From Massiliimicrobium timonense (lineage in GTDB: Bacteria; Bacillota_I; Bacilli_A; Erysipelotrichales; Coprobacillaceae): a DNA stretch of 33,138 nt. Position numbers and translations under genes: made by a program. Of this stretch, positions 3,187 through 33,138 are shown piece after piece (position 1 is the first letter of the stretch; each line of letters opens with the position of its first letter). Under the pieces are notes generated by a model, which saw nothing but the letters and a program-made list of their open reading frames with translations, ran no database searches and was not told where the DNA came from. The DNA lies in assembly GCF_002160865.1 (NCBI RefSeq), contig NZ_NFLJ01000036.1:1-33138 (forward strand), written 5' to 3'.

Positions 3187-4188
3187 ATGGCAAGTCAAAA
3201 ACCAGTTCCAGGAACAAATGGAAATCATTATGTGGCTTATGGTGAACGTACAGGAAAGGAATCTATTGTTTATTTTACAAGAGATCTTTCAGCAGAAGGA
3301 TTATCTAAAATTTATCAACGTATTCAAGGACATTTTAAAGAAAAGGTAGCTATTAAATTGCATACTGGAGAACAACATGGTCCTAATATTATTCCTCGAC
3401 CATGGGTAGAAAAACTTGTGAAAGAACAATTACCAGAGGCAACGATTGTCGAAACAAATACTTATTATGAGGGAGATCGTTATACAACGGATCAGCATCT
3501 TAAAACTTTGGAAGTCAATGGTTGGACGTTTTGTCCAGTAGATATTATGGATGCCAATGGCACAATTGATTTACCAGTCAAAGATGGCAAATGGTTTGAT
3601 CATATGACAATGGGAAAAACACTTGTTGATTATGATTCAATGCTTGTTTTGACACATTTCAAAGGTCATTCTAAGGGAGGATTCGGTGGTTCCAATAAAA
3701 ATATAGGTATTGGTTGTGCTGATGGCCGTATTGGGAAAAAGATGATTCATACAACACCGGGTTCTGATGATATGTGGGATATTTCTAATGAGGAATTTAT
3801 GGAACGTATGACAGAGTCTGCTAAAGCAGTTGTTGATTATTTTGGGGAACATATTGTTTATATCAATGTGATGCGTAATATGTCTGTTTCTTGTGATTGT
3901 GAAGGAACAGCAGCTGCACCAGTTGTGACACCCAATATCGGTATTTTAGCTTCACTTGATATTTTAGCGATTGATCAGGCATCTGTTGATTTGGTTTATG
4001 CTTTAAAAGAAGATCAACATCATGATTTGGTAGAAAGAATAGAATCACGTCATGGTTTACGTCAGTTATCTTATATGAAAGAATTGCATATGGGAAATGA
4101 TTTGTATCAGCTTATAGATATTGATCATGATGATCAATGCATTTCATTAAAAGAAGCTGTGAAAGATGTTGTTCCATTTACAAAATAA
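3187..4188 (+). CDS. DUF362 domain-containing protein
   Basis: The 333-residue protein matches the DUF362 family across its length. It has an N-terminal part with VAIKLHTGEQHGPN, a central THFKGHSKGGFGGSNKNIGI block, and the conserved C-terminal CDCEGTAAAPVVTPNIG followed by LASLDILAIDQASVDLV. Unlike many family members it has no C-terminal CxxCxxC ferredoxin domain. The biochemical role of DUF362 is not established, so none is assigned. No signal peptide or membrane segment is seen, so it should be cytoplasmic. The start at 3187 follows AAAGGGGG (3172-3179) by seven bases. The gene stands alone, transcribed toward the HAD gene, with which it shares a terminator. Confidence 0.85.
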   Translation: MASQKPVPGTNGNHYVAYGERTGKESIVYFTRDLSAEGLSKIYQRIQGHFKEKVAIKLHTGEQHGPNIIPRPWVEKLVKEQLPEATIVETNTYYEGDRYTTDQHLKTLEVNGWTFCPVDIMDANGTIDLPVKDGKWFDHMTMGKTLVDYDSMLVLTHFKGHSKGGFGGSNKNIGIGCADGRIGKKMIHTTPGSDDMWDISNEEFMERMTESAKAVVDYFGEHIVYINVMRNMSVSCDCEGTAAAPVVTPNIGILASLDILAIDQASVDLVYALKEDQHHDLVERIESRHGLRQLSYMKELHMGNDLYQLIDIDHDDQCISLKEAVKDVVPFTK

Positions 4189-4217
4189 AGGTTCAAGGAC
4201 ATTCCTTGAGCCTTTTT
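4187..4217. terminator. Bidirectional terminator between DUF362 and HAD genes
   Basis: A 13-bp stem (4187-4199 with 4203-4215, one G-T pair) closes a 3-base loop. It has T-runs on the plus side and, read from the other strand, on the minus side. It overlaps the DUF362 stop and abuts the HAD stop at 4216, serving both convergent genes. Confidence 0.85.
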
Positions 4218-4989
4218 ACAAAAGTTGAAAATGTTTAAGACCATCTAAAATCCCATCTTCATTTACACTTTGACAAATATATCTGCCATGTTTTTTGACT
4301 TCTTCACTTCCATTGCCCATCACAATTGGATAACCAACAATATCTAGCATTTCTATATCGTTATGACCATCACCAAAAGCCATCATTTCTTCCTTTTGGA
4401 AACCTAAATAATGTTGTAAGGCTTGAATTGCTGCTGCTTTGCCTCCTTTTTGAGGAACAATGTCATAAGCATAATCATGCCATCTTGTGACTTTGATATA
4501 TTTTGTATTTTGTATGATCTCTTGGATTTCTTTTTCATCGACATATGGGTCAATTTGATAAATATTGTTGATATTGATATCTTGGCAAATAGGGGGAATC
4601 ATTGTAGAAATGGATGCTTGAGCATCTTTGACTCTTTGATTGACATGATTGATATACATGCGATTATTTTCAATAAATAAACAAGGATAATGTTTTTCTT
4701 TAACAACTTTCACGATTTCCTGCACATCCTGTGCGTCTATTTTTTGGTCGTAGATAACTTGATCATGAACAAGGCAATATCCACCATTTAATAATAAATA
4801 ACCATCAAATTCAAATTGTTGATTGATTTTTAATTCTTCCAGTTCGAGCATATGTCTACCAGAGGCAATAAAGAGCTGAATCCCTTGATTCCTTAATTGT
4901 TGTAATCCCTGAATCACGTTTTCTTGAACCAAAGGTTTTTGTTTGGAAATCAAAGTTCCATCTATATCAAAAAAGATTGCTTTTATCAT
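4216..4989 (-). CDS. Cof-type HAD-IIB family phosphatase
   Basis: The 257-residue protein has all four HAD motifs. DIDGT (8-12) holds the aspartate nucleophile D8 and acid/base D10. SGR near 43-45 is motif II, K184 in QKGGKAAA is motif III, and GDGHNDIEM (206-214, with D207 and D211) is the metal site. Length and spacing fit the Cof/YidA-like IIB subfamily, which hydrolyses sugar phosphates and similar small phosphoesters in the cytoplasm; the substrate here is unknown. A ribosome binding site (AAAGGAG) precedes the ATG at 4989. The gene follows the terminator of the Nim-like gene. Confidence 0.9.
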   Translation of the reverse strand: MIKAIFFDIDGTLISKQKPLVQENVIQGLQQLRNQGIQLFIASGRHMLELEELKINQQFEFDGYLLLNGGYCLVHDQVIYDQKIDAQDVQEIVKVVKEKHYPCLFIENNRMYINHVNQRVKDAQASISTMIPPICQDININNIYQIDPYVDEKEIQEIIQNTKYIKVTRWHDYAYDIVPQKGGKAAAIQALQHYLGFQKEEMMAFGDGHNDIEMLDIVGYPIVMGNGSEEVKKHGRYICQSVNEDGILDGLKHFQLL

Positions 4990-5008
4990 TATATCTTCAC
5001 TCCTTTTA

Positions 5009-5045
5009 TAAAAAGCCTATAGATTAACGATAAGCATCTATAGGC
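5009..5045 (-). terminator. Rho-independent terminator of the Nim-like gene
   Basis: A 10-bp perfect stem GCCTATAGAT/ATCTATAGGC (5015-5024 with 5036-5045) with an 11-base loop is followed on the minus strand by five T. It lies just after the stop codon of the Nim-like gene. Confidence 0.85.
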
Positions 5046-5052
5046 AATATAT

Positions 5053-5562
5053 TTACTCTAATGTGACATGTTTTTTTGTCTTTTCTTCTGGATGAATATT
5101 ATTTCTTCTTTTCCCAATCATATCTAAGACTTTTAATCTAAAGACTGTTGTTGCTTTCATCATATTTGTATTGAATTGAAAATCTTCGTGATGATAATGT
5201 TTCATTAAAATCTTTAAAGCTTCATATTTATCATCTTCATCTACAAACTCAATTTCTCCATGTCCAATGACACTGGCATAACCCATTGTACAAGACATTC
5301 TTTCATCATAAAGAATGATATTGTGTTAACAATCCATTTCAAAAGTTGCCTTATTATTTTGTCTGATTAAATCTAGCTTTGTCCCTTGATTGGCACTATG
5401 AAAATAAAGATATAACTGTCCATCTTCAATATTCACACCAAAATTCAATGGAACAATATAAGGATATTCCTGATCAAAGAAAGCCAAACGACATGTATCA
5501 CATTTATTCATAATATCCATAATATCATGAAAATCTGTAATTTCTCTATCTTTTCTTCTCAT
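5053..5562 (-). pseudogene. Nim/pyridoxamine 5'-phosphate oxidase-like flavoprotein with an in-frame stop
   Basis: One continuous reading frame of 170 codons shows the pattern of the NimA-like pyridoxamine-phosphate-oxidase family. MRRKDREI starts it, then CDTCRLAF, YPYIVPLNFGV, LYLYFHSANQGTKLDLI and ATFEMDC, and after the break GYASVIGHGEIEFVDEDDKYEAL. These are small FMN-binding cytoplasmic proteins. A TAA at 5326-5328 interrupts the frame between ATFEMDC and HNIILYDER. Nothing is shifted, so a single base change accounts for it. The ATG at 5298 has no ribosome binding site, so the second part is unlikely to be translated separately. The promoter, start site and terminator are all intact, which suggests a recent nonsense mutation or a sequencing error. 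Confidence 0.75.
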
Positions 5563-5591
5563 TGCATTAACCTCACTTTTCTTTTATCTCT

Positions 5592-5620
5592 AGTATACAG
5601 GATATAATTATATGATTCAA
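5592..5620 (-). promoter_or_regulatory. Sigma-A promoter of the Nim-like gene
   Basis: On the minus strand TTGAAT (5615-5620) and TATACT (5592-5597) are separated by 17 bp, about 30 bases before the start codon. Confidence 0.7.
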
Positions 5621-5628
5621 TCGGGATA

Positions 5629-7074
<1,446 letters not shown>

Positions 7075-7168: not shown

Positions 7169-9508
7169 TTACAAAACGTGAAAATATTGTTGAAAAACTT
7201 TTTTTAAAGATAAAATCATCACAATTATCGAAATCATTATTTGAACAATTAATAATATAGGGTTTTCTATACAATATTGAATACAATTTAACATTGGATA
7301 AAAAGATATATCTTTGAAACAATCTATCTGATTATAAATAAGAAATAAAGGAATAACAAACAGACATAAACTTATAAATAATGTTGTCATAGTATGTCTG
7401 GCTTTCACACTAATCATCAATAAAAAACTCGTTAAGCTCATGCAAATAATAAATTTAATCAACCCATCTATAAGAAACAAATGACCTAAAGTCAATACAG
7501 AAGGTAAAGATCGAAAAGTTGGTATAGAAATGACAGATGCTCCTAAAGATGAAAAACCATAGACACTATGTAAAAAGATAAGAGGTGTTCCATAAAAAAT
7601 GCTCATCCCTATTCCTATTATAATAACACATCCTATAATTTTTAATTCTAGGATTCTATGATTTCCATTAATTGTTATTTGACTAACTTCATTAACATGA
7701 TTTTCATATTCAATATTAATAACTTGATATAAACTTAGTGACAAGAAAATCATCAGCATTAAACTAGGTGCTAAACTCCATGAAGAAGATAAAAAATATT
7801 CCTCATACGGGCGTTCATAAACAAATTCAGCTTGGGGATGTTTTTGAATCCACTCATATTGTTCCTTGACATCATTAAAAACATTCTCTCCTATCAACTT
7901 CATAGAAATATTTTCTTTAAGAGATTGCTTTTTTTGTGATGTGAGATTGATATTATTTTCAATTTTTTCTATTTGTTGATGCAATGAATCAAAATAATCC
8001 TGCTGTTGTTCAATCCATTTTATTTTGTCATCAGTAAGAGGTCCTTGTAAATATTGCATATAACTTTGATAAATAGAAGATTCACTATCCATATAAACAG
8101 AAACATGATGATATTGATAATATTGTAAAAATAAACTTAAAATAATGAGAAAACCAACTTTTTGTATTTTTATCATCTTATAAAATTCAAAACTGCATAA
8201 AGAAGACAAATGAAGACAATGTTTAAATACAAAATGAGCATTTCTCAAAGAAAAATCTCTTTTACAAACATAGATACATATACAACTTATACTCCCAAAA
8301 ATCAGTCCAGCTATTATAATAAAAATATGTAAATGATAAAGAGTTGTTGGCAATCCAAAAACAGATATATATCGATATGTTTTTAAATAAATATCTGTTT
8401 GTAGAAATGAAATCATATTGATATACTTCAATAAATAAAGTGAACTTAAGGGATGAATCATCAAATAACTGAAAACTTCTACTACAAAAAATACCAATAT
8501 AGATATCCAAGATAAAATTCTATTTTTCAATACCAAACATAAATTCATCATTATTATACCTAATAATGATAATACCAATATTTTAAATCCTATCATCAGA
8601 CCAATCCACTGTTTGACATTCATTTGTAAAGGACATTGTCTATAATGAGCCATTGACTGAATACTACGCGACAAATCTCCCAATCCACAGTTCCATGCCA
8701 TATAACCTAATTTTCCTGCATATACCAAAAAACAAATTATACTCGTTATCAAAAACATGACAATGAACTTTGCTATAATTACTTTCATATATCCATTTTG
8801 ACTTAATTTCAACAAATTCATCAATCCATTTTCTCTTTCTTCCATAATCAGATAATAGGATAAACTCAAGACAATAATCACTAAAAACAAACTCGTAAAA
8901 TCAAATGAAAACACCATTTCTAGAGGATATTGGATATCATATGTCACTTCAACATGGGTTAACTTTTGAAAATCTTTAGCACTTCTTTCTATTTCATTTT
9001 GATTTTGATGACTTTGAAAAATAGAAATTCCTGAAAGTTGTTGAGCCTGTTGTTGAATATCTTTAATATATTGAAAATAAGTCTTTAATTGTGTCATTTC
9101 GTCAAACATCATTTCTAAAAATTGAGCATCTTGTTCTAAAGACGATGTATATTGAGGCTGATGATTACTGATATACTCTTGTTGATAATTTTCAACATTA
9201 GGATTCTCTTGTAAAAGTTCTTCGATAATTGAAGCATTTTTTTGCTCATTTTGACGTAATTGCGTTAACTGTTCCAAAATCATAAATGACTGATATTTTT
9301 CATACTCTTTTTTTGTAAATTCATAACGTTTTTCATTAGGCAAGGAAAGTAAAGTCTGATGAAATTTTTGATAAGCAGATAAGGGAATCTTTTGATTTAA
9401 ACTTACTGAAAAAAGAAAAAATTGACTTAACAAAAGCAAAATAAGAATAACAATAAAGCTTTTACGTCCTCTCATTTTTATAAATTCATACTTGATTAAA
9501 GGCATCAT
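7169..9508 (-). CDS. ABC transporter permease, two ABC-2-like halves in one chain
   Basis: The 779-residue membrane protein reads as two similar halves. Each starts with a short basic/aromatic stretch and a first helix (YEFIKMRGRKSFIVILILL at the N-terminus; FEFYKMIKIQKVGFLIIL near 450). A long hydrophilic, Gln/Glu-rich extracytoplasmic loop follows in each (about 40-195 and 470-585), then a cluster of four to five helices. This is the layout of ABC-2-type exporter permeases, fused so that one chain could supply both halves of the channel. The start overlaps the ATPase stop by four bases (ATGA), so the pair is translationally coupled. The substrate is unknown; lantibiotic-immunity and ABC-2 peptide/lipid exporters are the nearest comparisons. 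No clear terminator is seen after it. Confidence 0.8.
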   Translation of the reverse strand: MMPLIKYEFIKMRGRKSFIVILILLLLSQFFLFSVSLNQKIPLSAYQKFHQTLLSLPNEKRYEFTKKEYEKYQSFMILEQLTQLRQNEQKNASIIEELLQENPNVENYQQEYISNHQPQYTSSLEQDAQFLEMMFDEMTQLKTYFQYIKDIQQQAQQLSGISIFQSHQNQNEIERSAKDFQKLTHVEVTYDIQYPLEMVFSFDFTSLFLVIIVLSLSYYLIMEERENGLMNLLKLSQNGYMKVIIAKFIVMFLITSIICFLVYAGKLGYMAWNCGLGDLSRSIQSMAHYRQCPLQMNVKQWIGLMIGFKILVLSLLGIIMMNLCLVLKNRILSWISILVFFVVEVFSYLMIHPLSSLYLLKYINMISFLQTDIYLKTYRYISVFGLPTTLYHLHIFIIIAGLIFGSISCICIYVCKRDFSLRNAHFVFKHCLHLSSLCSFEFYKMIKIQKVGFLIILSLFLQYYQYHHVSVYMDSESSIYQSYMQYLQGPLTDDKIKWIEQQQDYFDSLHQQIEKIENNINLTSQKKQSLKENISMKLIGENVFNDVKEQYEWIQKHPQAEFVYERPYEEYFLSSSWSLAPSLMLMIFLSLSLYQVINIEYENHVNEVSQITINGNHRILELKIIGCVIIIGIGMSIFYGTPLIFLHSVYGFSSLGASVISIPTFRSLPSVLTLGHLFLIDGLIKFIICMSLTSFLLMISVKARHTMTTLFISLCLFVIPLFLIYNQIDCFKDISFYPMLNCIQYCIENPILLIVQIMISIIVMILSLKKVFQQYFHVL

Positions 9509-10221
9509 ATATCATCACCAAAAATCTTTAAATAAACATCTTCTAAGCAATGAACTTGAAATTGTTTTAGCAAATCTTCTTTTTTTCCTTTTCCAACAAT
9601 GATACCATCTTTTAAAAAAACAATTTCTTTCGCAAGATTTTCTACATCAGAAACAACATGAGTTGCAATAAAAACAATATGATCATTTGATAGATGAGAT
9701 AAAACATTTCGTAGTGATACACGTTCTTTGGGATCAAGTCCTGTTGTTGGTTCGTCAAGCAATAAAAGTGATGGATTATTCAAAAGTGCTTGAGCTACTA
9801 ATATTCTTTGCTTCATACCACCTGAATATGTCTTACATTTTTGTTTGAGAAATTTGTCCATATTCACCAATTGAGCAACTCTATTCACTTCATTTTTTAA
9901 TTTCTTTTTCTCTATCCCTTTCAACAAAGCCATATAAGTTAAAAATTGTAATCCTGTCATATCTTCATAAAGTCCTTGTTGCTGTGGAGCATAGCCAATA
10001 TCTAGAAAATAATGTTGCCCCCAATCATCTATTTTCTTATGTTTCCATAAAATTTGTCCTTTTGTTGGTTTAAGCTGACGGCATATAAGTTTCATTAATG
10101 TTGATTTCCCTGAGCCATTAGGTCCCAATAATGCATAAATACCTTCATCCAAACAAAGATCAACGTGTTTTAAAACTTGATATGTTCCATAATTTTTATA
10201 TACATTTTTCATTTCTAACAT
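9505..10221 (-). CDS. ABC transporter ATP-binding protein
   Basis: The 238-residue nucleotide-binding subunit has Walker A GPNGSGKS (33-40), Q-loop Q80 in GYAPQQ, signature SGGM (133-136), Walker B LLLLDEP (152-158) and switch H188 in ATHVVSD. It is the CcmA/NatA-like type that pairs with ABC-2 permeases. It works at the inner face of the membrane with the permease that overlaps its stop. I place the start at ATG 10221, where AGGTGA stands five bases upstream; a GTG at 10230 is less likely. Only one base separates it from the stop of the lipoprotein gene, so the three genes form one operon. Confidence 0.93.
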   Translation of the reverse strand: MLEMKNVYKNYGTYQVLKHVDLCLDEGIYALLGPNGSGKSTLMKLICRQLKPTKGQILWKHKKIDDWGQHYFLDIGYAPQQQGLYEDMTGLQFLTYMALLKGIEKKKLKNEVNRVAQLVNMDKFLKQKCKTYSGGMKQRILVAQALLNNPSLLLLDEPTTGLDPKERVSLRNVLSHLSNDHIVFIATHVVSDVENLAKEIVFLKDGIIVGKGKKEDLLKQFQVHCLEDVYLKIFGDDI

Positions 10222-10222
10222 A

Positions 10223-11497
10223 CTAATCACCTATCTGCTTTATCGTTTGATATTCATTTTGATCGTTGAGAAAATCTTTTTTAGAAATACAACCAATAAA
10301 TGTCTTATCAACCTCGAATTGCATTGTTCCTGCCCATGTCTTTTCATCATGTCCAATACGATCATATTGGACTAATAGATTATCATGCATTTGAGCTAAA
10401 ATCGTTACTGCTTCTGTTGGTTTTCTAGTATAATGATGTAATTCAATCATTTTGGGTGAATGAACATCAATGGCATACATATGTGAATAAACTTCATTTT
10501 CATCATCATATTCCATCAATACGATATAATCATCCACTATATCAGAGAAATAATATTGATGATTTTGTGGTAAACTCATCAATGTTTTTATTTCCTGTGT
10601 TTTTATATCATACATATTTAATTTTTCACCATCACGATAATATATTTTTTTACCATCACATAAATCATAATCATCAAATTTTTGTGATACTCTATACATA
10701 TCTTTTGTATCAACATCAACACTTGTAAAAATAGTCTTTGCATTCATACATATTTCATCATATTTTTGAGTATTCCCTTGTTCTAGATATTCGGTTATAT
10801 TTTCAGGATAATCAAAGCCTTCTAAAATAAGTTTTCTACCATCAACACCTGCAATCATCATATCTGGTGCATCACATACTTTTTCACACTTTCCACTTTC
10901 TAAATGGATACGATACAACCCTCTTGCTTCATCTGTAACAATAGTATTATCTCCATTCATCTTATATTCTTTTTCCTTTCCCATAATGACATAAACATAT
11001 TGAGAATCAAAAGCACAATTTGTATCCACAAAATGATAACCATCTTGACAATGATATAAGACTTGGCGATTTTGACCATCTAAATCCATTTTGGTCATTT
11101 GTGGTCCTGTTCGTTGACTTTCTCCTAAAGCATTTATTTCCATAGATCCGGTACTATTCATCATATATAAATGATTCCCATACACAAATAAAGAGCTCAT
11201 AGAATCAAATGGTGAAAGATAAGATGTACAGTTTTCATCTTTGTGTTCACAGCCTGATTGCTTACATAAATAAACTTCCTGATGTGTTTGATAATCACAA
11301 TAAGCTAATCGACTATTTTCACCATCATTATGAATACGATAAAAACCTTTGTCATTTCCATCACCATATGTTGTATATCGCCTATCTTTCATCGTTAAAT
11401 TTTCTTTTTGGATATTCGTTTTATGGTCAGTTCCTATTTCATTTTGCTGACATCCGCATAACAATATAAAACATAAAATCATTAATATCTTTTTCAT
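10223..11497 (-). CDS. Lipoprotein with beta-propeller-like repeats, ABC-operon partner
   Basis: The 424-residue protein has a lipoprotein signal peptide: a KK start, a hydrophobic core and the lipobox LCGC with lipidated C16. The mature part contains repeated short motifs such as GFYRIHNDG, LYMMNSTG, GLYRIHLESG and KIYYRDGEKLNMYD, the rhythm of DUF5050/TolB-like propeller blades. A cysteine cluster LCKQSGCEHKDENC near residue 77-90 is typical of such Firmicute lipoproteins. It should be tethered outside the membrane. It is the first gene of the lipoprotein-ATPase-permease operon and directly follows the regulator/kinase operon. It may capture a ligand or sense envelope state for the exporter; that role is inference. 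Confidence 0.7.
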   Translation of the reverse strand: MKKILMILCFILLCGCQQNEIGTDHKTNIQKENLTMKDRRYTTYGDGNDKGFYRIHNDGENSRLAYCDYQTHQEVYLCKQSGCEHKDENCTSYLSPFDSMSSLFVYGNHLYMMNSTGSMEINALGESQRTGPQMTKMDLDGQNRQVLYHCQDGYHFVDTNCAFDSQYVYVIMGKEKEYKMNGDNTIVTDEARGLYRIHLESGKCEKVCDAPDMMIAGVDGRKLILEGFDYPENITEYLEQGNTQKYDEICMNAKTIFTSVDVDTKDMYRVSQKFDDYDLCDGKKIYYRDGEKLNMYDIKTQEIKTLMSLPQNHQYYFSDIVDDYIVLMEYDDENEVYSHMYAIDVHSPKMIELHHYTRKPTEAVTILAQMHDNLLVQYDRIGHDEKTWAGTMQFEVDKTFIGCISKKDFLNDQNEYQTIKQIGD

Positions 11498-11545
11498 ACT
11501 TTTTCACCCCACATTCATCATAACAATAAGATGTATCTAAATTGT

Positions 11546-11586
11546 AAAAAAAAGAGTTCTTTTCAATGTTGTTTTAAAAGAACTCC
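11546..11586 (-). terminator. Terminator ending the two-component operon
   Basis: On the minus strand a 10-bp stem GAGTTCTTTT/AAAAGAACTC (11554-11563 with 11576-11585) with a 12-base loop is followed by eight T. It separates the regulator-kinase operon from the lipoprotein-ABC operon. Confidence 0.85.
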
Positions 11587-11599
11587 ATAATTCATATCT

Positions 11600-12331
11600 T
11601 TACTTAATATTTATAATAGTTTCAGGTGTTCCCAATAATTGAACACCTATTGATAACTGCATTGATTCTGGTTCTTGATCATTTTGACAATAAACTCTTA
11701 TTTTTAAAATCTGTGACTCATAACCATATTGGTTGTATGACCAATCTTCAATATCATCCAACTCTAAATACTCAATCATATGCCAAGCCATATTTTGACA
11801 TTGCTTTTCAGTATAATTTTTCCCATTTGCATCTACTACCATAATACTATCAATTTTTTCCGTATCTTTTTCACATGAAAAAGATATATTTTTATAATCT
11901 TTATCCATCCTTAAAAGCTGATCCAAATAAGGGTCTTTTTGATCATAAATTGTTCCAAAAGTAATAGGATATCGATCTTGACTTGTTTCTAGTATATCCT
12001 GATCAATCACTTTGTATTGCATTAATTTTTCAATTTCTCTTGAAAAAATATTTTGTAACTCTGTGATTCTCTTTTGAGCAGACTGACTATAAAGTTCTTT
12101 ATTTTTCACAACGTATTGTGGTGAATTCTCATTATGATCATTGGAATAATAATCATTATAGATAGCTTGCACTATAGGGTGATTTTCAATAATTTTTTTC
12201 AAATTTGTTGTTTCTATTGTTTTAATATGTGAAAAATCATAATAATCTATGCTATAGACAACAATATAAGGCATAGCCAGTGATAATGATATAATAAGAA
12301 AACATATGATTTTGATTTTATATTTTTTCAT
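11600..12331 (-). CDS. Membrane-anchored extracytoplasmic protein of unknown function
   Basis: The 243-residue protein has a basic start (MKKYKIKI) and one N-terminal hydrophobic segment (about 8-27) with no lipobox. A hydrophilic domain follows, predicted outside the membrane. I recognise no family. The start at 12331 lies inside the last codons of the histidine kinase (14-base overlap), so translation is coupled. That arrangement suggests an accessory protein for the sensor, such as an input-modulating partner. A terminator follows directly, so it is the last gene of this operon. Confidence 0.7.
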   Translation of the reverse strand: MKKYKIKIICFLIISLSLAMPYIVVYSIDYYDFSHIKTIETTNLKKIIENHPIVQAIYNDYYSNDHNENSPQYVVKNKELYSQSAQKRITELQNIFSREIEKLMQYKVIDQDILETSQDRYPITFGTIYDQKDPYLDQLLRMDKDYKNISFSCEKDTEKIDSIMVVDANGKNYTEKQCQNMAWHMIEYLELDDIEDWSYNQYGYESQILKIRVYCQNDQEPESMQLSIGVQLLGTPETIINIK

Positions 12332-13736
12332 GATTGACCTCCAAAGCAAAAGACATCGTTGTTCCATTATTAAGCTGCGATTGAATTTGCAAGGAACTAT
12401 GATGTAATTCTAGAATACGTTTGACAATGGTTAATCCTAATCCTGCACCACCCATAGAGCGAGAACGAGATTTATCTGCCATATAGAATGGTTCTGTTGC
12501 CTTTTCTATCGCTTCTTGACTCATACCAATCCCCTGATCACGAATAGAAAAAATAACATGCTGTTGACACTTGTGAATACTCACCTTAACATATTGATTA
12601 TCTTGACTTGCTTTCAATGCATTATCAATCAAGTTTCTCAACAATACAAATAATAACTCTTCTTGTGATAATACACAAACATCATCATAGTCTATGATTA
12701 AACGCTCTTGTTTATTTTGACCGAGATAATAGTTTTTAATTTGTTTTATCACATCTTTTATTTTTACACATTGCCATTGAATCGTTCGATTATTTAAAGC
12801 TAATAAATCCATTAAAGTATATGCTAAGCTTTCTAGACGTCTTCCCTCATGATAAATATATTGAGCTGCTTTTTGTCTTGTTTCCTCATCACAATCACAA
12901 GTCCTTAATAAATCTGCAAATCCTAAAATAGCTGTCATTGGTGTTTTAATTTCATGAGAAAAACTTGCCATAAATTCTTCTTTTTGAACAACATTATCTT
13001 GTAATTGTTGAATGCGTTGTTCATTCATTTGTGCCATATAGTCAAAACTCTGTGATAACTCACCAATCTCATCTTGACTTTGAATACATGTTCTTTCACT
13101 ATATTGCCCACTTGCTATTCTTTTTGATACTTCATTCAATTTTAAAATAGAACGTGTTAAATAATGAGAAAGAACTTTTAAAATGAAGGAAGCCCCAATA
13201 AGCAAGAAACATCCAATGATTAAAAAACTTTGTAATTGTCTATCTCTTTCCTTATATACAAAAGACATATCATAGCACGTTTCAAGATAATAAATATCTG
13301 TCCCTACAGTAAAAGAAGAAGTCACAAACATATATTGATTCTTTTGTATTGATTGCATAAAATAGGTGTGATTATGTTCTGATGAAATATAAGGCTTCAA
13401 ATTTTCATTCATATCTGTATATAATATTTGATTATTATCATGTATCAAAGCATAATATCCATTTTTTTCAACATCTTGAAACTGTTGAACATAATAAATC
13501 ATCTTATTTTGAATTTGCTGGTTATCTTTTGAATAATATCCTTGAAGACTTATGCTATCCTGAAATAGTCTTGATTCTAATGTATAAAGCTCAATTTGAT
13601 GGTGTGATAAATATTGATCGCGTGTTGTTTTTAAAAGCGTTACATGATTTTGATAAATCATCAATAACATTCCTATTGAAAACATGATTGCTAAAATTAC
13701 CAGACAGCTATATATAATTTTTTCAGAAAACTTCAT
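12318..13736 (-). CDS. Sensor histidine kinase
   Basis: The 472-residue protein has helix 1 (about 7-28), an extracytoplasmic sensor domain of about 135 residues, and helix 2 (about 168-189). A HAMP linker (about 190-243) follows, then the HisKA domain with SFSHEIKTPM (phospho-acceptor H261) and an ATPase domain with N box NLIDNALKAS, G1 DQGIGMS and G2 GGAGLGL. It should autophosphorylate on H261 and pass phosphate to the adjacent OmpR-type regulator. The start overlaps the regulator stop by four bases (ATGA) and has GGAGG upstream. The sensor domain does not reveal its signal. Confidence 0.95.
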   Translation of the reverse strand: MKFSEKIIYSCLVILAIMFSIGMLLMIYQNHVTLLKTTRDQYLSHHQIELYTLESRLFQDSISLQGYYSKDNQQIQNKMIYYVQQFQDVEKNGYYALIHDNNQILYTDMNENLKPYISSEHNHTYFMQSIQKNQYMFVTSSFTVGTDIYYLETCYDMSFVYKERDRQLQSFLIIGCFLLIGASFILKVLSHYLTRSILKLNEVSKRIASGQYSERTCIQSQDEIGELSQSFDYMAQMNEQRIQQLQDNVVQKEEFMASFSHEIKTPMTAILGFADLLRTCDCDEETRQKAAQYIYHEGRRLESLAYTLMDLLALNNRTIQWQCVKIKDVIKQIKNYYLGQNKQERLIIDYDDVCVLSQEELLFVLLRNLIDNALKASQDNQYVKVSIHKCQQHVIFSIRDQGIGMSQEAIEKATEPFYMADKSRSRSMGGAGLGLTIVKRILELHHSSLQIQSQLNNGTTMSFALEVNHEKI

Positions 13737-14392
13737 TGTTGTACCTCCAGCATATAGCCTATACGATAAACTGTTTTAATAGCATGTTGCCAATTTAATT
13801 TTTTACGTAATCTTTGAATATGTAAATCTAAAGTTCTTGTTTCTTCCTTATCATCATTCCAGACTTTTTGATATAAAACATCTCTATATAATGCAATATT
13901 TTTATTTTGAACTAAAAAAAGTAATAATTCATATTCCATATGTGTTAGATAGATTCTCTTTCCGTTTTGTATCACTAGTCTTTGATTAAGGTCAATTGTA
14001 ATATCTAAAACTTTTATCTCATTTAAGCTTTTATGGTAACGTCTTAAAACACTTTCCACTCTTGCTAGTAGCTCATCAATAGAAAATGGTTTTACCAAAT
14101 AATCATCTGCTCCCATTTTTAATCCTTTTACTCTTTCTTCCACTGTTGATTTAGCACTGATAAAAATGACGGGAACATTTTGTGGCTTAATATACTGCAT
14201 CAATTCGTATCCATCAATAAAAGGTAACATAATATCTAATAAAATTAAATCATAGTGGTGATAATCAATCAGTATAGACCCTTCTTTTCCATTTTGAGCA
14301 TAATCGCATTGATAACCCGCTCTTGTTAAATTCATTCCAATTAAATCTCTAATCGCCATTTCATCTTCTACAATTAATATTTTCAATATCAT
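13733..14392 (-). CDS. OmpR/PhoB-family response regulator
   Basis: The receiver domain (residues 1-120) has acidic residues in VEDE, the phosphorylation site in LLDIMLP (D53), S/T in FISAKS and the conserved lysine in YLVKPF. The C-terminal winged helix has LTHMEYELL and ETRTLDLHIQRLRKKL, typical of OmpR DNA-binding domains. The partner is the overlapping kinase. The start is uncertain: ATG 14392 is given, but TTG 14386 (protein starting MKILIVEDE) has better spacing from GAGGGG at 14395-14400. An 11-bp-period direct repeat lies upstream at 14422-14440. The target genes are probably local, with the ABC operon as a candidate. Confidence 0.93.
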   Translation of the reverse strand: MILKILIVEDEMAIRDLIGMNLTRAGYQCDYAQNGKEGSILIDYHHYDLILLDIMLPFIDGYELMQYIKPQNVPVIFISAKSTVEERVKGLKMGADDYLVKPFSIDELLARVESVLRRYHKSLNEIKVLDITIDLNQRLVIQNGKRIYLTHMEYELLLFLVQNKNIALYRDVLYQKVWNDDKEETRTLDLHIQRLRKKLNWQHAIKTVYRIGYMLEVQQ

Positions 14393-14421
14393 CACCCCTC
14401 ACATAAAATCATATCAAAAAG

Positions 14422-14440
14422 TTGTATCATTATTGTATCA
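14422..14440 (-). promoter_or_regulatory. Direct repeat upstream of the response regulator gene
   Basis: TGATACAA occurs twice on the minus strand (14433-14440 and 14422-14429), 11 bp apart, one helix turn, which is the usual geometry of OmpR-family binding sites. The same bases also fit an extended -10 element (TGnTACAAT), so this may be the promoter itself, or both. Confidence 0.45.
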
Positions 14441-14442
14441 TA

Positions 14443-14471
14443 AAAAAAGCTTACGACTGAGCGTAAACTTT
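14443..14471 (-). terminator. Terminator after the Ig-like lipoprotein gene
   Basis: On the minus strand a stem (14446-14455 with 14462-14471, one mismatch) with a 6-base loop is followed by a T-run. It overlaps the lipoprotein stop codon and separates glpK-lipoprotein from the regulator operon. Confidence 0.75.
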
Positions 14472-14937
14472 ATTGAATAACAAATTCACTATAATATGCT
14501 TTTTCATCATAATCACTGCCACCTCTAAAATCCTGTATTTCCTTACCAATACGATATTCACCATTTGACAAAGAACCATAGAGATCTTCCCATTGGATAT
14601 CCCAATGTGTAAAATCCTGTTTTTGAATAGTGTAACTCACATCTGACCAGACAGGTTTTTGAGGTGTAGGAAGTTCCTGCCACTTTCCATCTCTCTTTTC
14701 TTCAACCCAATACTTCTCTCCCGTTTGCAAATCTCCTGTGACTTCTCCACCATTTTGACTACAAATCAACGTTAAACCCGTATCTGTTACATTGTCAACA
14801 TTAAGAACAATGCCCCAAGAATCATCTGTTTCCACTAATTGTAGCGATGATTCTGACTTAGAGACAGATGACTTTTGTGTTTCTTGACATCCTACAATCA
14901 TTAAACATAATAAACATACAATTAAAATTTTTTTCAT
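14470..14937 (-). CDS. Small lipoprotein with immunoglobulin-like (Big_14-type) domain
   Basis: The 155-residue protein begins MKKILIVCLLCLMIVGCQ, a lipoprotein signal peptide with lipobox IVGC (C17). The mature domain has VLNVDNVTDTGLTLICSQNG, GEKYWVEEKRDGKWQ and LSNGEYRIGKEI. This pattern is shared with a family of bacterial Ig-like lipoproteins found in Firmicutes, often with beta-lactam or envelope sensor systems. It should be anchored on the outer face of the membrane. AGGAG lies five bases before the ATG. The gene begins eight bases after the glpK stop, so it is probably read through from glpK; a functional link to glycerol is not implied. Confidence 0.7.
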   Translation of the reverse strand: MKKILIVCLLCLMIVGCQETQKSSVSKSESSLQLVETDDSWGIVLNVDNVTDTGLTLICSQNGGEVTGDLQTGEKYWVEEKRDGKWQELPTPQKPVWSDVSYTIQKQDFTHWDIQWEDLYGSLSNGEYRIGKEIQDFRGGSDYDEKAYYSEFVIQ

Positions 14938-19456: not shown

Positions 19457-19497
19457 TAATCATAAATAAGAAAACATAAAGATGAGGAGTGATTCAG

Positions 19498-20946
19498 ATG
19501 GATATAAAAAAACTGATTGCTGATACAGAAAATAAAAATATTGAATTTAAAGAAACGTTACCTAATAATAGTCAAAAATATATTAAAACCGTTGTTGCTT
19601 TTGCAAATGGTATTGGTGGAAAAATTATTTTTGGTGTTAGCGATGATACTAGAAAAATTGTTGGAATTGAAAAAGAAAAGGCATTTAAAGTTGTTGATGC
19701 AATTACAAATGCAATATCTGATAGTTGTGAACCTGCAATTATTCCCGATATTTATTTAAAAACAATTGATGAAAAAACTTTAATTATCGTAGAAATTGAC
19801 GCAGAAAGACAAAGACCTTACTATTTAAAATCTTTAGGTAAAGAAAATGGAACTTATGTAAGAATAGCGGGTACTACAAGACTTGCAGATGAAGCTATGA
19901 TTAAAGAACTGACATTCGAAGGAAATAATCGTTGTTTTGATCAATCTATCTGTTTAGGATTAGAAATCACAAATGAAGATATCATCAAATTATGCAATTC
20001 TTTAAAAGAAGTAGCATTAAGAAATGCACCCGATTCGCTAAAACACACAATAAAGGATGTTACAGAAAAGCAACTTGTTTCTTGGGGAATATTAATTGAA
20101 AAGGAAGGAAAATTTTTTCCAACAAATGCATATGCCATATTAACAGGTAATGAAGCATTTCCAATGCATATTCAATGTGGATTATTCAAAGGAAATAATA
20201 GAGCGATTTTCGTGGATAAAAGAGAACTAAACGGACCAATTTATGAACAAATAGAAGAAGCTTATCAATTTGTTTTACGAAATATTCATCTTGGTGCAAA
20301 AATTAAAGGTGTTTATCGACAAGATGTATACGAAATACCTCCAGAAAGTATCAGAGAGTTAATTATTAATGCTGCAATCCATCGTAGTTATCTTGATAGA
20401 AATAACATTCAAATCGCAATTTATGATGATCGTTTAGAAGTAACTTCTCCTGGAAAACTCGCTATGGGTCAAACAATAGATAAAATGAAAGATGGTTATT
20501 CTAAGATTCGTAATGAAGCTTTAGCCAATGCTTTTTCTTATATGAATTTAATTGAGCATTGGGGCAGTGGAATCCCTCGTATTATTAACACAGTTTTAAA
20601 CGCCGGGTTAAAAGAACCAGAGTTTATTGGTGGAGATATTGACTTAAGAATTAATATTTATAGAAGTCAAATTCATGATACTGACCTTGATGACCTTAAT
20701 GTTGACCTTGATGACCTTAATGTTGACCTTGATGACCTTAATGTTGACCTTGATTATCAATCAATGAACCTATTAAAACTTATTCATAAATATCCAACAT
20801 TGACTTATAAAGAATATGGATTAAGGTTAAATATTTCTGAAGCAACCGTAAAAAGATTATTTAATAAATTGAAATCATCTAAGATAGTCAAACGTGAGGG
20901 TTCATCTCGAAACGGAAAGTGGATCATCAACAAGAAATCACTTTAA
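19498..20946 (+). CDS. AlbA_2 (Schlafen-like) domain regulator with ATPase-like and winged-helix parts
   Basis: The 482-residue protein begins with an AlbA_2 domain (E-x-K-E in NIEFKE near 15-20, then FANGIGGKIIFGVSDD). A COG2865-type HATPase_c_4-like part follows (ELIINAAIHRSYLDRNN, IYDDRLEVTSPGKL, EHWGSGIPRI). After it comes an acidic linker made of three perfect DLDDLNV repeats, then a C-terminal winged-helix-like segment (EYGLRLNISEATVKRLFNKL). Such proteins are taken to be DNA-binding regulators, and some lie in defence islands; the role here is unknown. The start is ATG 19498, with GAGGAG eight bases upstream. It is a lone gene with its own promoter and terminator between two opposite-facing operons. 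Confidence 0.85.
   Translation: MDIKKLIADTENKNIEFKETLPNNSQKYIKTVVAFANGIGGKIIFGVSDDTRKIVGIEKEKAFKVVDAITNAISDSCEPAIIPDIYLKTIDEKTLIIVEIDAERQRPYYLKSLGKENGTYVRIAGTTRLADEAMIKELTFEGNNRCFDQSICLGLEITNEDIIKLCNSLKEVALRNAPDSLKHTIKDVTEKQLVSWGILIEKEGKFFPTNAYAILTGNEAFPMHIQCGLFKGNNRAIFVDKRELNGPIYEQIEEAYQFVLRNIHLGAKIKGVYRQDVYEIPPESIRELIINAAIHRSYLDRNNIQIAIYDDRLEVTSPGKLAMGQTIDKMKDGYSKIRNEALANAFSYMNLIEHWGSGIPRIINTVLNAGLKEPEFIGGDIDLRINIYRSQIHDTDLDDLNVDLDDLNVDLDDLNVDLDYQSMNLLKLIHKYPTLTYKEYGLRLNISEATVKRLFNKLKSSKIVKREGSSRNGKWIINKKSL
20683..20754 (+). repeat. 21-bp perfect in-frame tandem repeat
   Basis: The 21-base unit starting GACCTTGATGACCTTAATG occurs three times (20683-20703, 20704-20724, 20725-20745), plus nine bases of a fourth. 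Each unit encodes DLDDLNV, so copy-number change would keep the reading frame and alter only linker length. Confidence 0.95.
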
Positions 20947-30514: not shown

Positions 30515-30742
30515 TTATGAGTGAATTAACCTGTAGAAATCATTGTAGCTTATATTCAAAAAGATATAATCATCAATCCTTTCTAATTGTGTCTTACTAC
30601 ACTCCTTCACCCATTCAAAGTTTTTGTTTGGAAATTTCTTTAACAACAATTTCATTAATTTTTTAATTTCTCCTCGTTCTTCACCAATATCTTCTCCTTC
30701 TTTTTTTGCTTCATTAATTAATTCTTCTAATGCTTCACACAT
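30515..30742 (-). CDS. Possible intragenic small protein (RpnS-like) in copy 1
   Basis: This 75-residue frame lies inside Rpn copy 1 in the same frame, starting at M201 (MCEALEELIN). AAGGAGG (30753-30759 on the minus strand) stands ten bases before the ATG, with AGAGG in between. It covers the C-terminal helical part without the nuclease domain, as in the known intragenic RpnS antitoxins that block full-length Rpn. Expression is not shown. Confidence 0.45.
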   Translation of the reverse strand: MCEALEELINEAKKEGEDIGEERGEIKKLMKLLLKKFPNKNFEWVKECSKTQLERIDDYIFLNISYNDFYRLIHS

Positions 30743-31342
30743 TGTCCTCTTTCCTCCTTCTTGTTTTTTGAAATAACTGACTCTTTTTTTTAACACTTCA
30801 TAATACATATCATCAGGATTATTGCACAGCATATCATGCATTAGCTTTCCTAATGGTGTTTCATCCTGCATTGATGCATTTAAATAGATGATATGTAACT
30901 TATCTTTAAAAACATTGCCATCTTCTCGATATCTTTGTATATGGTCTAGCATTTTACCATTTTTTAATACATCTTCCTCACATATAAAAACAACATATAT
31001 CTCTGGAAACTCTTTCCATCCTTCTTTTGGATAAGACAAATCACAATCCAATATACTGGCATGATATCTTGCCCTTATAGGTGAGGCATTGTCTTTGTTT
31101 TTTTCTACCTCTATACCTATCACTGCTCCTTCATGCGTATAGACAACAATATCCAATTCCACCGATCGACTGCCTACTTGCTTATGGTCCTCCTGTGTTT
31201 CGAATCTCTTGAGTGAAAACTGTTCACCAAAGATAATCTTCATCAACAGTTCAACACATTGATAATCCTTGAATATCATTCTCATAAAAGTATCATCAAT
31301 AGGTCTTAATTTATTTAATACTTTTAGATATTTCTCATTCAT
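30515..31342 (-). CDS. Rpn-family PD-(D/E)XK nuclease / putative transposase, copy 1
   Basis: The 275-residue protein matches the Rpn family (PDDEXK_2, transposase_31-like), with RPIDDTFMRMIF at the N-terminus. The nuclease core has D64 in VELDIVVY and acidic E78/E80 in GIEVEK, and the SPIRARYHASILD segment follows. The C-terminal third is helical and charged (GEDIGEERGEIKKLMKLLLKKFP). Rpn proteins are DNA endonucleases that stimulate recombination; relatives in E. coli act as toxins with antiphage activity. The start at 31342 follows AAGGAGG by eight bases. An internal start at 30742 with its own ribosome binding site may give a C-terminal small protein. Confidence 0.93.
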   Translation of the reverse strand: MNEKYLKVLNKLRPIDDTFMRMIFKDYQCVELLMKIIFGEQFSLKRFETQEDHKQVGSRSVELDIVVYTHEGAVIGIEVEKNKDNASPIRARYHASILDCDLSYPKEGWKEFPEIYVVFICEEDVLKNGKMLDHIQRYREDGNVFKDKLHIIYLNASMQDETPLGKLMHDMLCNNPDDMYYEVLKKRVSYFKKQEGGKRTMCEALEELINEAKKEGEDIGEERGEIKKLMKLLLKKFPNKNFEWVKECSKTQLERIDDYIFLNISYNDFYRLIHS

Positions 31343-31411
31343 TGATCGTTCCTCCTTTTTGATTTTTATAGTTGATTAAACCTTCAATATTTAAGGAACG
31401 ATTATTTATCT

Positions 31412-31440
31412 TATCAAAGGGATTCAAAGTCCCTTTGATA
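31412..31440 (-). repeat. Stem-loop behind Rpn copy 2
   Basis: Equivalent to the copy 1 stem-loop, with paired changes: AAAGGGATT...AGTCCCTTT against AAAGGAACT...AGTTCCTTT. An A-T pair becomes G-C and one C-G becomes T-G, so the pairing is kept. Confidence 0.75.
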
Positions 31441-31441
31441 G

Positions 31442-31669
31442 TCATGAATGAACTAATTTATAGAAATCACTGTAGCTTATATTCAAAAAGATATAATCAT
31501 CAATCTTTTCTAATTGTGTCTTACTACACTCTTTCACCCATTCAAAGTTTTTGTTTGGAAATTTCTTTAACAACAATTTCATTAATTTTTTAATTTCTCC
31601 TCGTTCTTCACCAATATCTTCTCCTTCTTTTTTTGCTTCATTAATTAGTTCTTCTAATGCTTCACACAT
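31442..31669 (-). CDS. Possible intragenic small protein (RpnS-like) in copy 2
   Basis: 75 residues from M201 of copy 2. The ribosome binding site AAGGAGG ten bases upstream is conserved; only the intermediate AGAGG is changed to AGAAG. Same reasoning as for copy 1. Confidence 0.42.
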   Translation of the reverse strand: MCEALEELINEAKKEGEDIGEERGEIKKLMKLLLKKFPNKNFEWVKECSKTQLEKIDDYIFLNISYSDFYKLVHS

Positions 31670-32269
31670 TGTCTTCTTTCCTCCTTCTTGCTTTTTAAAA
31701 TAACTGACTCTTTTTCTTAACACTTCATAATACATCTCATCAGGATCATTGCACAGCATATCATGCATTAACTTCCCTAATGGTGTTTCATCTTGCATTG
31801 ATGCATTTAAATAGATGATATGTAACTTATCTTTAAAAACATTGCCATCTTCTCGATATCTCTGTATATGGTCTAGCATTTTACCATTTTTTAATACATC
31901 TTCCTCACATATAAAGATAACATACATTTCTGGAAAATGACTCCATTTCTCTTTTGGATAGGACAAATCACAATCCAGTACACTGGCATGATATCTTGCC
32001 CTTATAGGTGAGGCATTGTCTTTGCTTTTTTCAACCTCTATGCCTATGATGACTCCTTCATACGTATAGACAACAATATCCAATTCTACCGATCGACTAA
32101 CCACTTGCTTATGGTCCTCCTGTGTTTCAAATCTCTTGAGTGAAAACTGGTCACCAAAGATAATCTTCATCAACAGTTCAACACATTGATGATCCCTGAA
32201 TATCATTCTCATAAAAGTATCATCAATAGGTCTTAATTTATTTAATACGTTAAGATATTTCTCATTCAT
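31442..32269 (-). CDS. Rpn-family PD-(D/E)XK nuclease / putative transposase, copy 2
   Basis: 275 residues, the same length as copy 1 and nearly identical to it. Differences are scattered (for example KEKWSHFPEMYVIF for KEGWKEFPEIYVVF, and CNDPDEMYYEVLRKR for CNNPDDMYYEVLKKR). The core D64 and the EVEK acidic pair are kept, so the protein should be active. The start at 32269 has the same AAGGAGG site. The spacer to copy 1 is 99 bp and holds no clear promoter, so the array may be co-transcribed or each copy weakly expressed. Confidence 0.93.
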   Translation of the reverse strand: MNEKYLNVLNKLRPIDDTFMRMIFRDHQCVELLMKIIFGDQFSLKRFETQEDHKQVVSRSVELDIVVYTYEGVIIGIEVEKSKDNASPIRARYHASVLDCDLSYPKEKWSHFPEMYVIFICEEDVLKNGKMLDHIQRYREDGNVFKDKLHIIYLNASMQDETPLGKLMHDMLCNDPDEMYYEVLRKRVSYFKKQEGGKKTMCEALEELINEAKKEGEDIGEERGEIKKLMKLLLKKFPNKNFEWVKECSKTQLEKIDDYIFLNISYSDFYKLVHS

Positions 32270-32338
32270 TGATCGTTCCTCCTTTTTGATTTTTATAGTT
32301 GATTAAACCTTCAATATTTAAGGAACGATTATTTATCA

Positions 32339-32367
32339 TATCAAAGGGATTCAAAGTCCCTTTGATA
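32339..32367 (-). repeat. Stem-loop behind Rpn copy 3
   Basis: TATCAAAGGGATT/AGTCCCTTTGATA, identical in form to copy 2, directly after the copy 3 stop. Confidence 0.75.
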
Positions 32368-32368
32368 G

Positions 32369-32632
32369 TCATGAATGAATTAACTTATAGAAATCATTGT
32401 AGCTTATATTCAAAAAGATATAATCATCAATCTTTTCTAATTGCGTTTTACTACACTCCTTCACCCATTCAAAGTTTTTGTTTGGAAATTTCTTTAACAG
32501 CAATTTCATTAATTTTTTAATTTCTCCTCGTTCTTCACCTATTAATTTTCCACGTTCTTCTCCACGTTTTTCACCAATATTTTCACCCTCTTTTTTTGCT
32601 TCAGTAATTAATTCTTCTAATGCTTCACACAT
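32369..32632 (-). CDS. Possible intragenic small protein (RpnS-like) in copy 3
   Basis: 87 residues from the conserved internal ATG, with AAGGAGG ten bases upstream; it is longer than in copies 1 and 2 because it contains the 12-residue insertion. Same reasoning as for copy 1. Confidence 0.42.
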   Translation of the reverse strand: MCEALEELITEAKKEGENIGEKRGEERGKLIGEERGEIKKLMKLLLKKFPNKNFEWVKECSKTQLEKIDDYIFLNISYNDFYKLIHS

Positions 32633-33138
32633 AGTCCTCTTTCCTCCTTCTTGCTTTTTAAAATAACTGACTCTTTTTCTTAAAACCTCATAATACATGT
32701 CATCAGGATCATTACACATCATATCATGCATTAACTTCCCTAATGGTGTTTCATCTTGCATTGATGCATTTAAATAGATAATATGTAACTTATCTTTAAA
32801 TTGTTCCTGCTTGTCAATATAGCGTTCAATATGACTCACTAATCGTTTTGTTTTCAATACATCTTCCTCACATATAAAGACAACATACATCTCTGGAAAA
32901 TGACTCCATTTCTCTCCTGGATAGGACAAATCACAATCCAATATACTGGCATGATATCTTGCCCTTATAGGTGAAGCATTGTCTTTGCTTTTTTCAACCT
33001 CTATACCTATCACTGCTCTTTCATGCGTATAGACAACAATATCCAATTCCACCGATCGACTAACCACTTGCTTATGGTCCTCCTGTGTTTCAAATCTCTT
33101 GAGTGAAAACTGTTCACCAAAGATAATCTTCATCAACA
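32369..33138 (-). CDS. Rpn-family PD-(D/E)XK nuclease, copy 3 (5' end outside the window)
   Basis: The gene enters from the right edge; the first full codon corresponds to L33 of the other copies, so about 32 residues are missing. It agrees closely with copies 1 and 2 except in two places. The segment KTKRLVSHIERYIDKQEQ replaces KNGKMLDHIQRYREDGNV with no length change. Near the C-terminus a 12-residue insertion of GEERG-like charged repeats appears. The nuclease residues are intact. The sharp local divergence suggests recombination with another Rpn gene. Confidence 0.92.
   Translation of the reverse strand, partial: LMKIIFGEQFSLKRFETQEDHKQVVSRSVELDIVVYTHERAVIGIEVEKSKDNASPIRARYHASILDCDLSYPGEKWSHFPEMYVVFICEEDVLKTKRLVSHIERYIDKQEQFKDKLHIIYLNASMQDETPLGKLMHDMMCNDPDDMYYEVLRKRVSYFKKQEGGKRTMCEALEELITEAKKEGENIGEKRGEERGKLIGEERGEIKKLMKLLLKKFPNKNFEWVKECSKTQLEKIDDYIFLNISYNDFYKLIHS

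Follow-up and report, generated by a model that had tools for sequence, protein, structure and literature searches.

A candidate envelope sense-and-export regulon in Massiliimicrobium timonense, marked by a direct-repeat box at two promoters

Do a sensor operon and a transporter operon that lie next to each other in Massiliimicrobium timonense act together, and what would they be for? The question arises from a 33,138-nt stretch of contig NZ_NFLJ01000036.1 (the window, on which all positions are numbered). Its minus strand carries, from 14395 down to 7169, the genes of a response regulator (RR), a sensor histidine kinase (HK), a membrane-anchored extracytoplasmic protein (ANCH), a lipoprotein (LIPO), an ABC ATPase and a permease (PERM), in that order. 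An earlier note on this DNA had described two adjacent operons of one strand, RR-HK with an overlapping anchored protein and then LIPO-ATPase-PERM, and had taken them for a possible sense-and-export module. All six genes do lie on the minus strand, and the module reading gains support from three sides: the operons occur together in other genomes, ANCH is tied to HK, and both promoters share a box that is nearly unique in the genome. From these comparisons we consider it well supported that the two operons would form a single regulon, in which a three-component sensor is combined with a lipoprotein-assisted double ABC-2 exporter.

A direct-repeat box at both promoters

When the promoters of the two operons were set side by side and searched by pattern, a common element emerged, here called box 1. 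It reads GATACA-N5-GATACA-N9-TATGAT at the sensor-operon promoter (14408..14439, minus strand) and TTTACA-N5-GATACA-N9-TATGAT at the exporter-operon promoter (11517..11548, minus strand). A comparison of intergenic regions places it ahead of both RR and LIPO in all six genomes that carry the six-gene set, with the consensus KWTACA-N5-GATACA-N9-TANNNT (first half [GT][AT]TACA). Box 1 resembles the direct repeats of the PhoP and WalR type. The M. timonense genome (2.78 Mb, 113 contigs) holds exactly two strict matches, the RR and LIPO promoters themselves, and not one of 100 dinucleotide shuffles of the window contained any. In the five other six-gene genomes the strict box occurs at both promoters and at three further places in total, ten control genomes (without ANCH and without full-length LIPO by profile searches) have one match altogether, and the reversed pattern has none across all 16 genomes. 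As the pattern was written after the 12 initial promoters had been seen, these are no independent test of it; independent support comes from its near-absence elsewhere and from the sites at four loci (L044, L046, L060 and L134), which lie 60 to 115 nt upstream of LIPO. Box 1 precedes LIPO in all ten ANCH-bearing module loci that were read. At L044, L046 and L060, where RR lies downstream, no box stands within 300 nt of it, as expected if RR shares a transcript with LIPO there. A shared and almost genome-unique box thus links the operons far more strongly than their adjacency does.

In favour of the division into two operons, ANCH is followed by a hairpin with a T-run resembling an intrinsic terminator (about 11553..11586, minus strand) and then by the box-bearing LIPO promoter. 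The hairpin was seen by folding, and the ANCH-LIPO gap of five relatives with the six-gene set likewise shows a hairpin with T after it; the consensus terminator scan of the window did not list it. In that scan a terminator-like site appears ahead of the RR promoter, and the overall counts are no higher than chance (58 promoters against 60 expected, 2 terminators against 1.5 expected). Separated from RR by a terminator-like hairpin, an upstream gene (14470-14937, minus strand) encodes a lipoprotein of 155 aa in which Pfam finds an Ig-like domain, Big_14; no counterpart was noticed in the gene clusters of the relatives.

The six genes and their recurrence

When 60 genomes were searched with a single sequence, LIPO turned up in 8, its own included. 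With a profile, 15 of 43 genomes of the family matched at E<=1e-4, seven of them full-length (G000, G006, G009, G010, G013, G022 and G025), and 10 of 392 genomes sampled from the phylum also matched, where four matches were new and near full-length (G318, G326, G377 and G412, all of one genus). In the family of Lachnospira rogosae (G419; Lachnospiraceae, Bacillota), which belongs to another search group than the window genome, 6 of 299 genomes matched at E<=1e-20, and a wider profile matched 2 of 398 genomes of its phylum at E<=1e-8, G786 among them; viral contigs gave no LIPO relatives. Across these samples the LIPO family is uncommon and patchily distributed.

Eighteen loci were read in which LIPO, ATPase and PERM stand together. 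The order RR-HK-ANCH-LIPO-ATP-PERM is found at six of them, the window included (G000, G009, G022, G025, G010 and G006); outside the M. timonense genome these are five genomes of four other genera, G009 and G025 sharing one. The order LIPO-ATP-PERM-RR-HK-ANCH is found at four (G377, G318, G412 and G576), three of one genus in another family and one of Lachnospiraceae; its first five genes recall spaIFEG-RK, and the PERM frame found in G377 is 597 aa long. A further four (G013, G326, G475 and G459) read RR-HK-LIPO-ATP-PERM without ANCH, and one (G012) reads LIPO-PERM-ATP-RR-HK. Whether the operons occur together had been set beforehand as one point on which the module reading could fail; they do, in the same order in six genomes and in another order in four. 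Several weaker LIPO matches were left out of the 18. In G024, G030, G062, G064 and G560 they are lipoproteins that lack both the Cys/His motif described below and an adjacent ABC permease, and in G063 the match, likewise without the motif, has an ATPase and a permease of 379 aa next to it. In G002, G048, G022:C34, G060 and the second matches of G062 and G064 the match falls mostly on the signal peptide; G786 and G052 were also left out.

The sensor operon begins with RR (13733..14395, minus strand), which the open reading frame list, Pfam (Response_reg and Trans_reg_C) and alignment with relatives identify as an OmpR/PhoB-class regulator. Homology to relatives, which served to correct the starts of RR, ANCH and ATPase, suggests that RR probably starts at TTG 14386. 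HK (12318..13736, minus strand) has HAMP, HisKA and HATPase_c domains in Pfam, and its hydropathy gives two transmembrane (TM) segments, 3-32 and 167-194, with about 134 extracytoplasmic residues between them. ANCH (11600..12331, minus strand; 243 aa) has a single N-terminal TM segment by hydropathy and no family assignment in Pfam or NCBIfam; its start is probably ATG 12331, which would give a 14-nt overlap with the end of HK. An ANCH profile matched 6 of the 43 family genomes, each within the six-gene set, and 2 of the 299 genomes of the G419 family. One of these two is G576, in the module; the other is G434, where the match covers the C-terminal third only and the genes run Amidase_3-RR-HK-ANCH with no ABC genes beside them. 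ANCH of G377 and G318 was found by position and then aligned, and the relative in G412 was matched at E 2.3e-8 among the frames of its locus by a profile built without the G377 and G318 rows. At all 11 ANCH loci the gene lies directly downstream of HK, and at ten an ATG start gives an overlap of 8 to 14 nt with HK; in G434 there is no ATG near the TM segment, and a TTG start would overlap HK. From its position ANCH appears to belong with HK, which agrees with the earlier suggestion that the kinase is coupled to a dedicated extracellular partner. A structure model of ANCH alone was unusable, with a predicted local distance difference test (pLDDT) score of 41.6.

The exporter operon opens with LIPO (10223..11497, minus strand; 424 aa), which has no family match in Pfam or NCBIfam apart from a sub-cut-off match to its signal peptide. 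Its alignment revealed the motif C78-x4-C83-x-H85-x2-E88-x-C90 (11228..11266, minus strand), whose five named residues are invariant in all eight LIPO members first aligned. In a set of 18 rows chosen for their adjoining ABC genes, the three Cys and the His of C-x4-C-x-H-x4-C are kept in 17, L062 being without them. The motif could bind metal or form disulfides. By eye, the LIPO N-terminus at L044, L046 and L060 resembles a TM anchor and lacks the lipobox Cys, and that at L134 begins alike. At L058 (6831-13064, plus strand), two LIPO copies flank one PERM and one ATPase in a single cluster. LIPO had been described as propeller-like in the earlier note. In favour of this, DUF5050 matches 2 of the 18 members (best E 7.4e-7) and the LIPO profile has internal repeats, whereas the window LIPO itself is unmatched and a structure model made with one relative was unusable (pLDDT 38.8), so that the case for a beta-propeller is weak to moderate. 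The ATPase (9505..10221, minus strand; ABC_tran in Pfam) probably starts at ATG 10221 and has Walker A GPNGSGKST, signature YSGGM and Walker B LLLLDEP. PERM (7169..9508, minus strand; 779 aa) is made of two multi-TM halves by hydropathy, with segments of about 155 and 120 residues after the first TM helix of each, the first helix of the second half staying under the threshold of the plot. The two halves agree with the two-in-one ABC-2 permease proposed earlier, with a weak match to ABC2_membrane_2 in Pfam (21.5 bits, below the cut-off of 27.2). Profile searches of the PDB with LIPO, ANCH and PERM returned nothing meaningful.

Regulator classes and the cell envelope

A second box of the same geometry, TTGACN-N5-TTGACN-N9-KATAMT (box 2), lies ahead of RR at the four module loci without ANCH that have the order RR-HK-LIPO-ATP-PERM (L016, L045, L059 and, as a variant, L061), and at L059 also ahead of LIPO. 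Neither box pattern is present at the remaining four ANCH-less module loci (L049, L057, L058 and L062). Strict box 2 matches number one in G013, two each in G475 and G326 and none in G459, and there is none in the other ten genomes searched; the match G326:C18 lies inside a coding region and was taken as chance. Apart from the LIPO site at L059 and the genome counts, this pattern is post hoc.

The boxes go with the recognition helices of the regulators. All 11 aligned box-1-class RRs share RT[LV]DLH[IV]QR[LIV]RKK, and two further RRs adjoining box 1 (L124 and L125) have RT[VI]DLHVQRLKKK. The helix differs in six other aligned RRs, four of which have the TTGAC box and a helix resembling EHIRKIR (EHVRKIR in one). 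A direct repeat of 11-bp period next to the -10, differing between RR classes with different helices, is what would be expected of an OmpR/PhoB-class regulon, and it was found here by computation with post hoc patterns. In trees of RR and HK, both flagged for long branches, the ten ANCH rows and the doubtful L098 split from six rows without ANCH, with support of 100/99 for RR and 83/89 for HK; with L098 placed among them, two changes are needed to account for the ANCH rows by themselves.

Strict box 1 also precedes operons of RR, HK, an anchored third gene and VanY in two distant genomes, G010 and G576 (L098:91-4971, minus strand; L125:5218-9561, plus strand). The third gene has a doubtful relation to ANCH, hence its name. 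The strict box further lies ahead of genes of the LytR-CpsA-Psr (LCP) family in G009, G025 and the control G002 (L096:4808, L097:5066 and L099:4943, all plus strand). In G434 it stands before a Peptidase_C39_2 gene, and a box with one mismatch stands ahead of Amidase_3-RR-HK-ANCH. A second strict box, in G434:C108 near the end of HK, precedes a 268-aa gene whose product looks secreted and has no family; the 268-aa gene at L124 was compared with ANCH and showed no relation. Related RR-HK cassettes that carry the box beside VanY genes point to envelope sensing, and the box 1 class as a whole, judged from its neighbours, likewise points to the envelope. We therefore entertain, at somewhat less than an even chance, a broader view in which RR-HK-ANCH would be a three-component envelope sensor that is portable and has a DNA code of its own, GATACA-N5-GATACA. 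With its close relatives it would be plugged into different outputs, namely the exporter with the Cys/His-motif, propeller-like lipoprotein here and VanY, muramoyl-amidase or C39-type genes elsewhere. A sister class with the TTGAC box and no ANCH would drive the same exporter, so that regulator and box would have diverged together while the exporter was kept.

Known systems, proposed function and its alternatives

The module fits none of the named systems compared here; the earlier note had recognised no named system in ANCH or in the LIPO/PERM pair. Cpr and LanFEG consist of an ATPase and two six-TM permeases with a two-component system, Cpr having an adjacent lipoprotein (PMC5786555). LanFEG-LanI/LanRK and CprABC-CprRK thus resemble the module in having a nearby two-component system, a lipoprotein, one ABC-2 ATPase and two permease halves. 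In contrast to their separate permeases, which have no large extracellular domain, the module has a single fused PERM with two large extracytoplasmic segments, a 424-aa LIPO with a Cys/His motif, and ANCH. Its ATPase resembles the lantibiotic-protection subfamily TIGR03740, among many other families, below the cut-off (E 7e-46; 156.7 bits against 309.75), and on this score and the fused PERM we rejected LanFEG/Cpr membership. BceRS-BceAB also places a two-component system beside an ABC transporter, but the Bce permease has ten TM segments with one extracytoplasmic domain between TM7 and TM8, and its kinase a short loop (same source). PERM is weakly ABC-2-like, the extracytoplasmic segment of HK is large, and LIPO and ANCH are extra; we excluded Bce membership on the permease type and the HK segment.

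The WalRK system, in which the membrane-bound extracytoplasmic accessory proteins YycH and YycI modulate the kinase (PMC7355866), shares with the module an accessory extracytoplasmic protein by HK and, through the related cassettes, wall-related neighbours. A lipoprotein with a predicted beta-propeller domain, WalA, is described for the C. difficile wal operon (PMC9210968). However, RR scores 149.7 bits against the WalR (YycF) cut-off of 340 and HK 165.8 bits against 725 for WalK. ANCH gave no YycH or YycI match for nine members at E<=10 within HMMER filters, so this membership was rejected as well. The module also differs in its dedicated ABC output and in carrying box 1 at the RR promoter, wal operons being reported as not autoregulated. 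QseEF-QseG likewise joins a kinase to a dedicated extracytoplasmic third component (PMC6075780), but it is enterobacterial, has sigma-54-dependent promoters, and its partner is a lipoprotein, whereas ANCH is TM-anchored. Literature searches matched no published description of this gene combination, most subscription papers being outside their scope.

We put at about even the chance that this is an autoregulated envelope-stress sense-and-export module, perhaps for a peptide antibiotic. HK and its anchored partner ANCH would sense a compound or damage at the surface of the membrane or wall. Phosphorylated RR would then bind the 11-bp direct repeat GATACA-N5-GATACA, 9 nt before the -10, at two promoters only, and would raise its own operon and that of LIPO-ATPase-PERM. 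LIPO may capture the substrate outside the membrane, and two copies of the ATPase would drive PERM, which would either expel the substrate or pull it off the membrane. The likeliest substrates would be membrane- or lipid II-directed peptide-type antimicrobials, which is the weakest step of the proposal; detoxification of peptide-type envelope antimicrobials appears to be the likeliest function.

Several observations weigh against this proposal. PERM differs from LanEG and BceB, the surroundings of the module showed no gene for antibiotic biosynthesis, and only one of five genomes of the window's genus, its own, has a full-length LIPO. The specificity of the box is limited to the strict form. 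The bare repeat without the -10 part occurs six times in the window at up to two mismatches against 4.84 expected, and the full box with one mismatch occurs five times in the M. timonense genome against six for the reversed control. Across seven genomes, a one-mismatch search gave 26 matches, including 9 strict ones, where the reversed control gave 24, so that one-mismatch sites were taken as noise. Those examined further were G434:C75:47854 and G434:C108, both next to RR genes, G000:C48 and G000:C35, the last with a rubrerythrin gene downstream. One of the box-plus-LCP matches lies in the control genome G002, which is without ANCH and full-length LIPO; there the box may be used by a different, related RR. 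At two loci of G419 the module stands beside LytTR/GHKL-type regulators, Pfam confirming AgrB, LytTR and GHKL at one and the other being assigned by look only. At L057 of L. rogosae (3293-5835, minus strand) AgrB, a LytTR regulator and a GHKL kinase lie directly behind LIPO-PERM-ATP, with no AgrD-sized gene obvious in the stretches looked at. In G710, BlaI and M56/BlaR1-type genes (Pfam) adjoin the module, LIPO is without its motif and an extra gene separates PERM from ATPase. With such neighbours in G419 and G710, a signalling or secretion role is possible.

The most serious alternative, although a less probable one, is that the transporter exports a product of the cell itself, such as a surface lipid, a precursor of the wall, or a peptide that is secreted or serves as a signal, and that the sensor switches it on when the envelope needs it, with no detoxification involved. 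The AgrB-LytTR-GHKL genes of L. rogosae would fit this, as would BlaI/M56 with a small secreted-looking protein in G710 and the LCP, VanY and amidase genes that carry the same or a one-mismatch box. It is opposed by the restriction of the strict box in the M. timonense genome to the exporter and sensor operons, and no gene next to the module, in the window or in the five six-gene relatives, stood out as candidate cargo. That the transporter is instead part of the sensor, LIPO-ATP-PERM signalling flux to HK through ANCH in a Bce-like manner, seems rather improbable to us. The conserved neighbourhood speaks for it, and ANCH, predicted to be extracytoplasmic, could act as a bridge, but the extracytoplasmic segment of HK is large compared with the short loop of BceS-type kinases (PMC5786555), and G434 has RR-HK-ANCH with no ABC module beside it and no LIPO match at E<=1e-20. 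We regard it as very improbable that the two operons are unrelated and have stayed neighbours through chance or common descent of the locus. A GH1-glycosidase-like gene (5629-7062, minus strand) also lies beside or near the module at three relatives' loci (L011, L012 and L013), which indicates that the locus position is probably old and makes synteny alone weak evidence. Yet four genomes have another gene order with the same box ahead of LIPO, and the strict box is almost unique in the genome; in the window scan it is absent ahead of the GH1-like gene.

Elsewhere in the window, scans with Rfam at the gathering threshold and for tRNAs gave no matches. Three tandem, closely similar genes of 255-275 aa (30515-33136, minus strand), the last at the window end, look like one family duplicated in place, and a 485-aa protein (19489-20946, plus strand) carries, close to its C-terminus, the short unit DDLNVDL repeated in tandem and in frame.

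If the exporter acts on antimicrobials, the module would be one for resistance that escapes searches aimed at LanFEG or Bce systems. The analysis provides a concrete regulon that can be tested, made up of two promoters of a single genome, for a sensor and exporter without a name, and defines two extracytoplasmic families that have no Pfam name, ANCH and the CxxxxCxHxxxxC lipoprotein. In this family of modules, the pair of regulator and box would change while the exporter as its target is kept.

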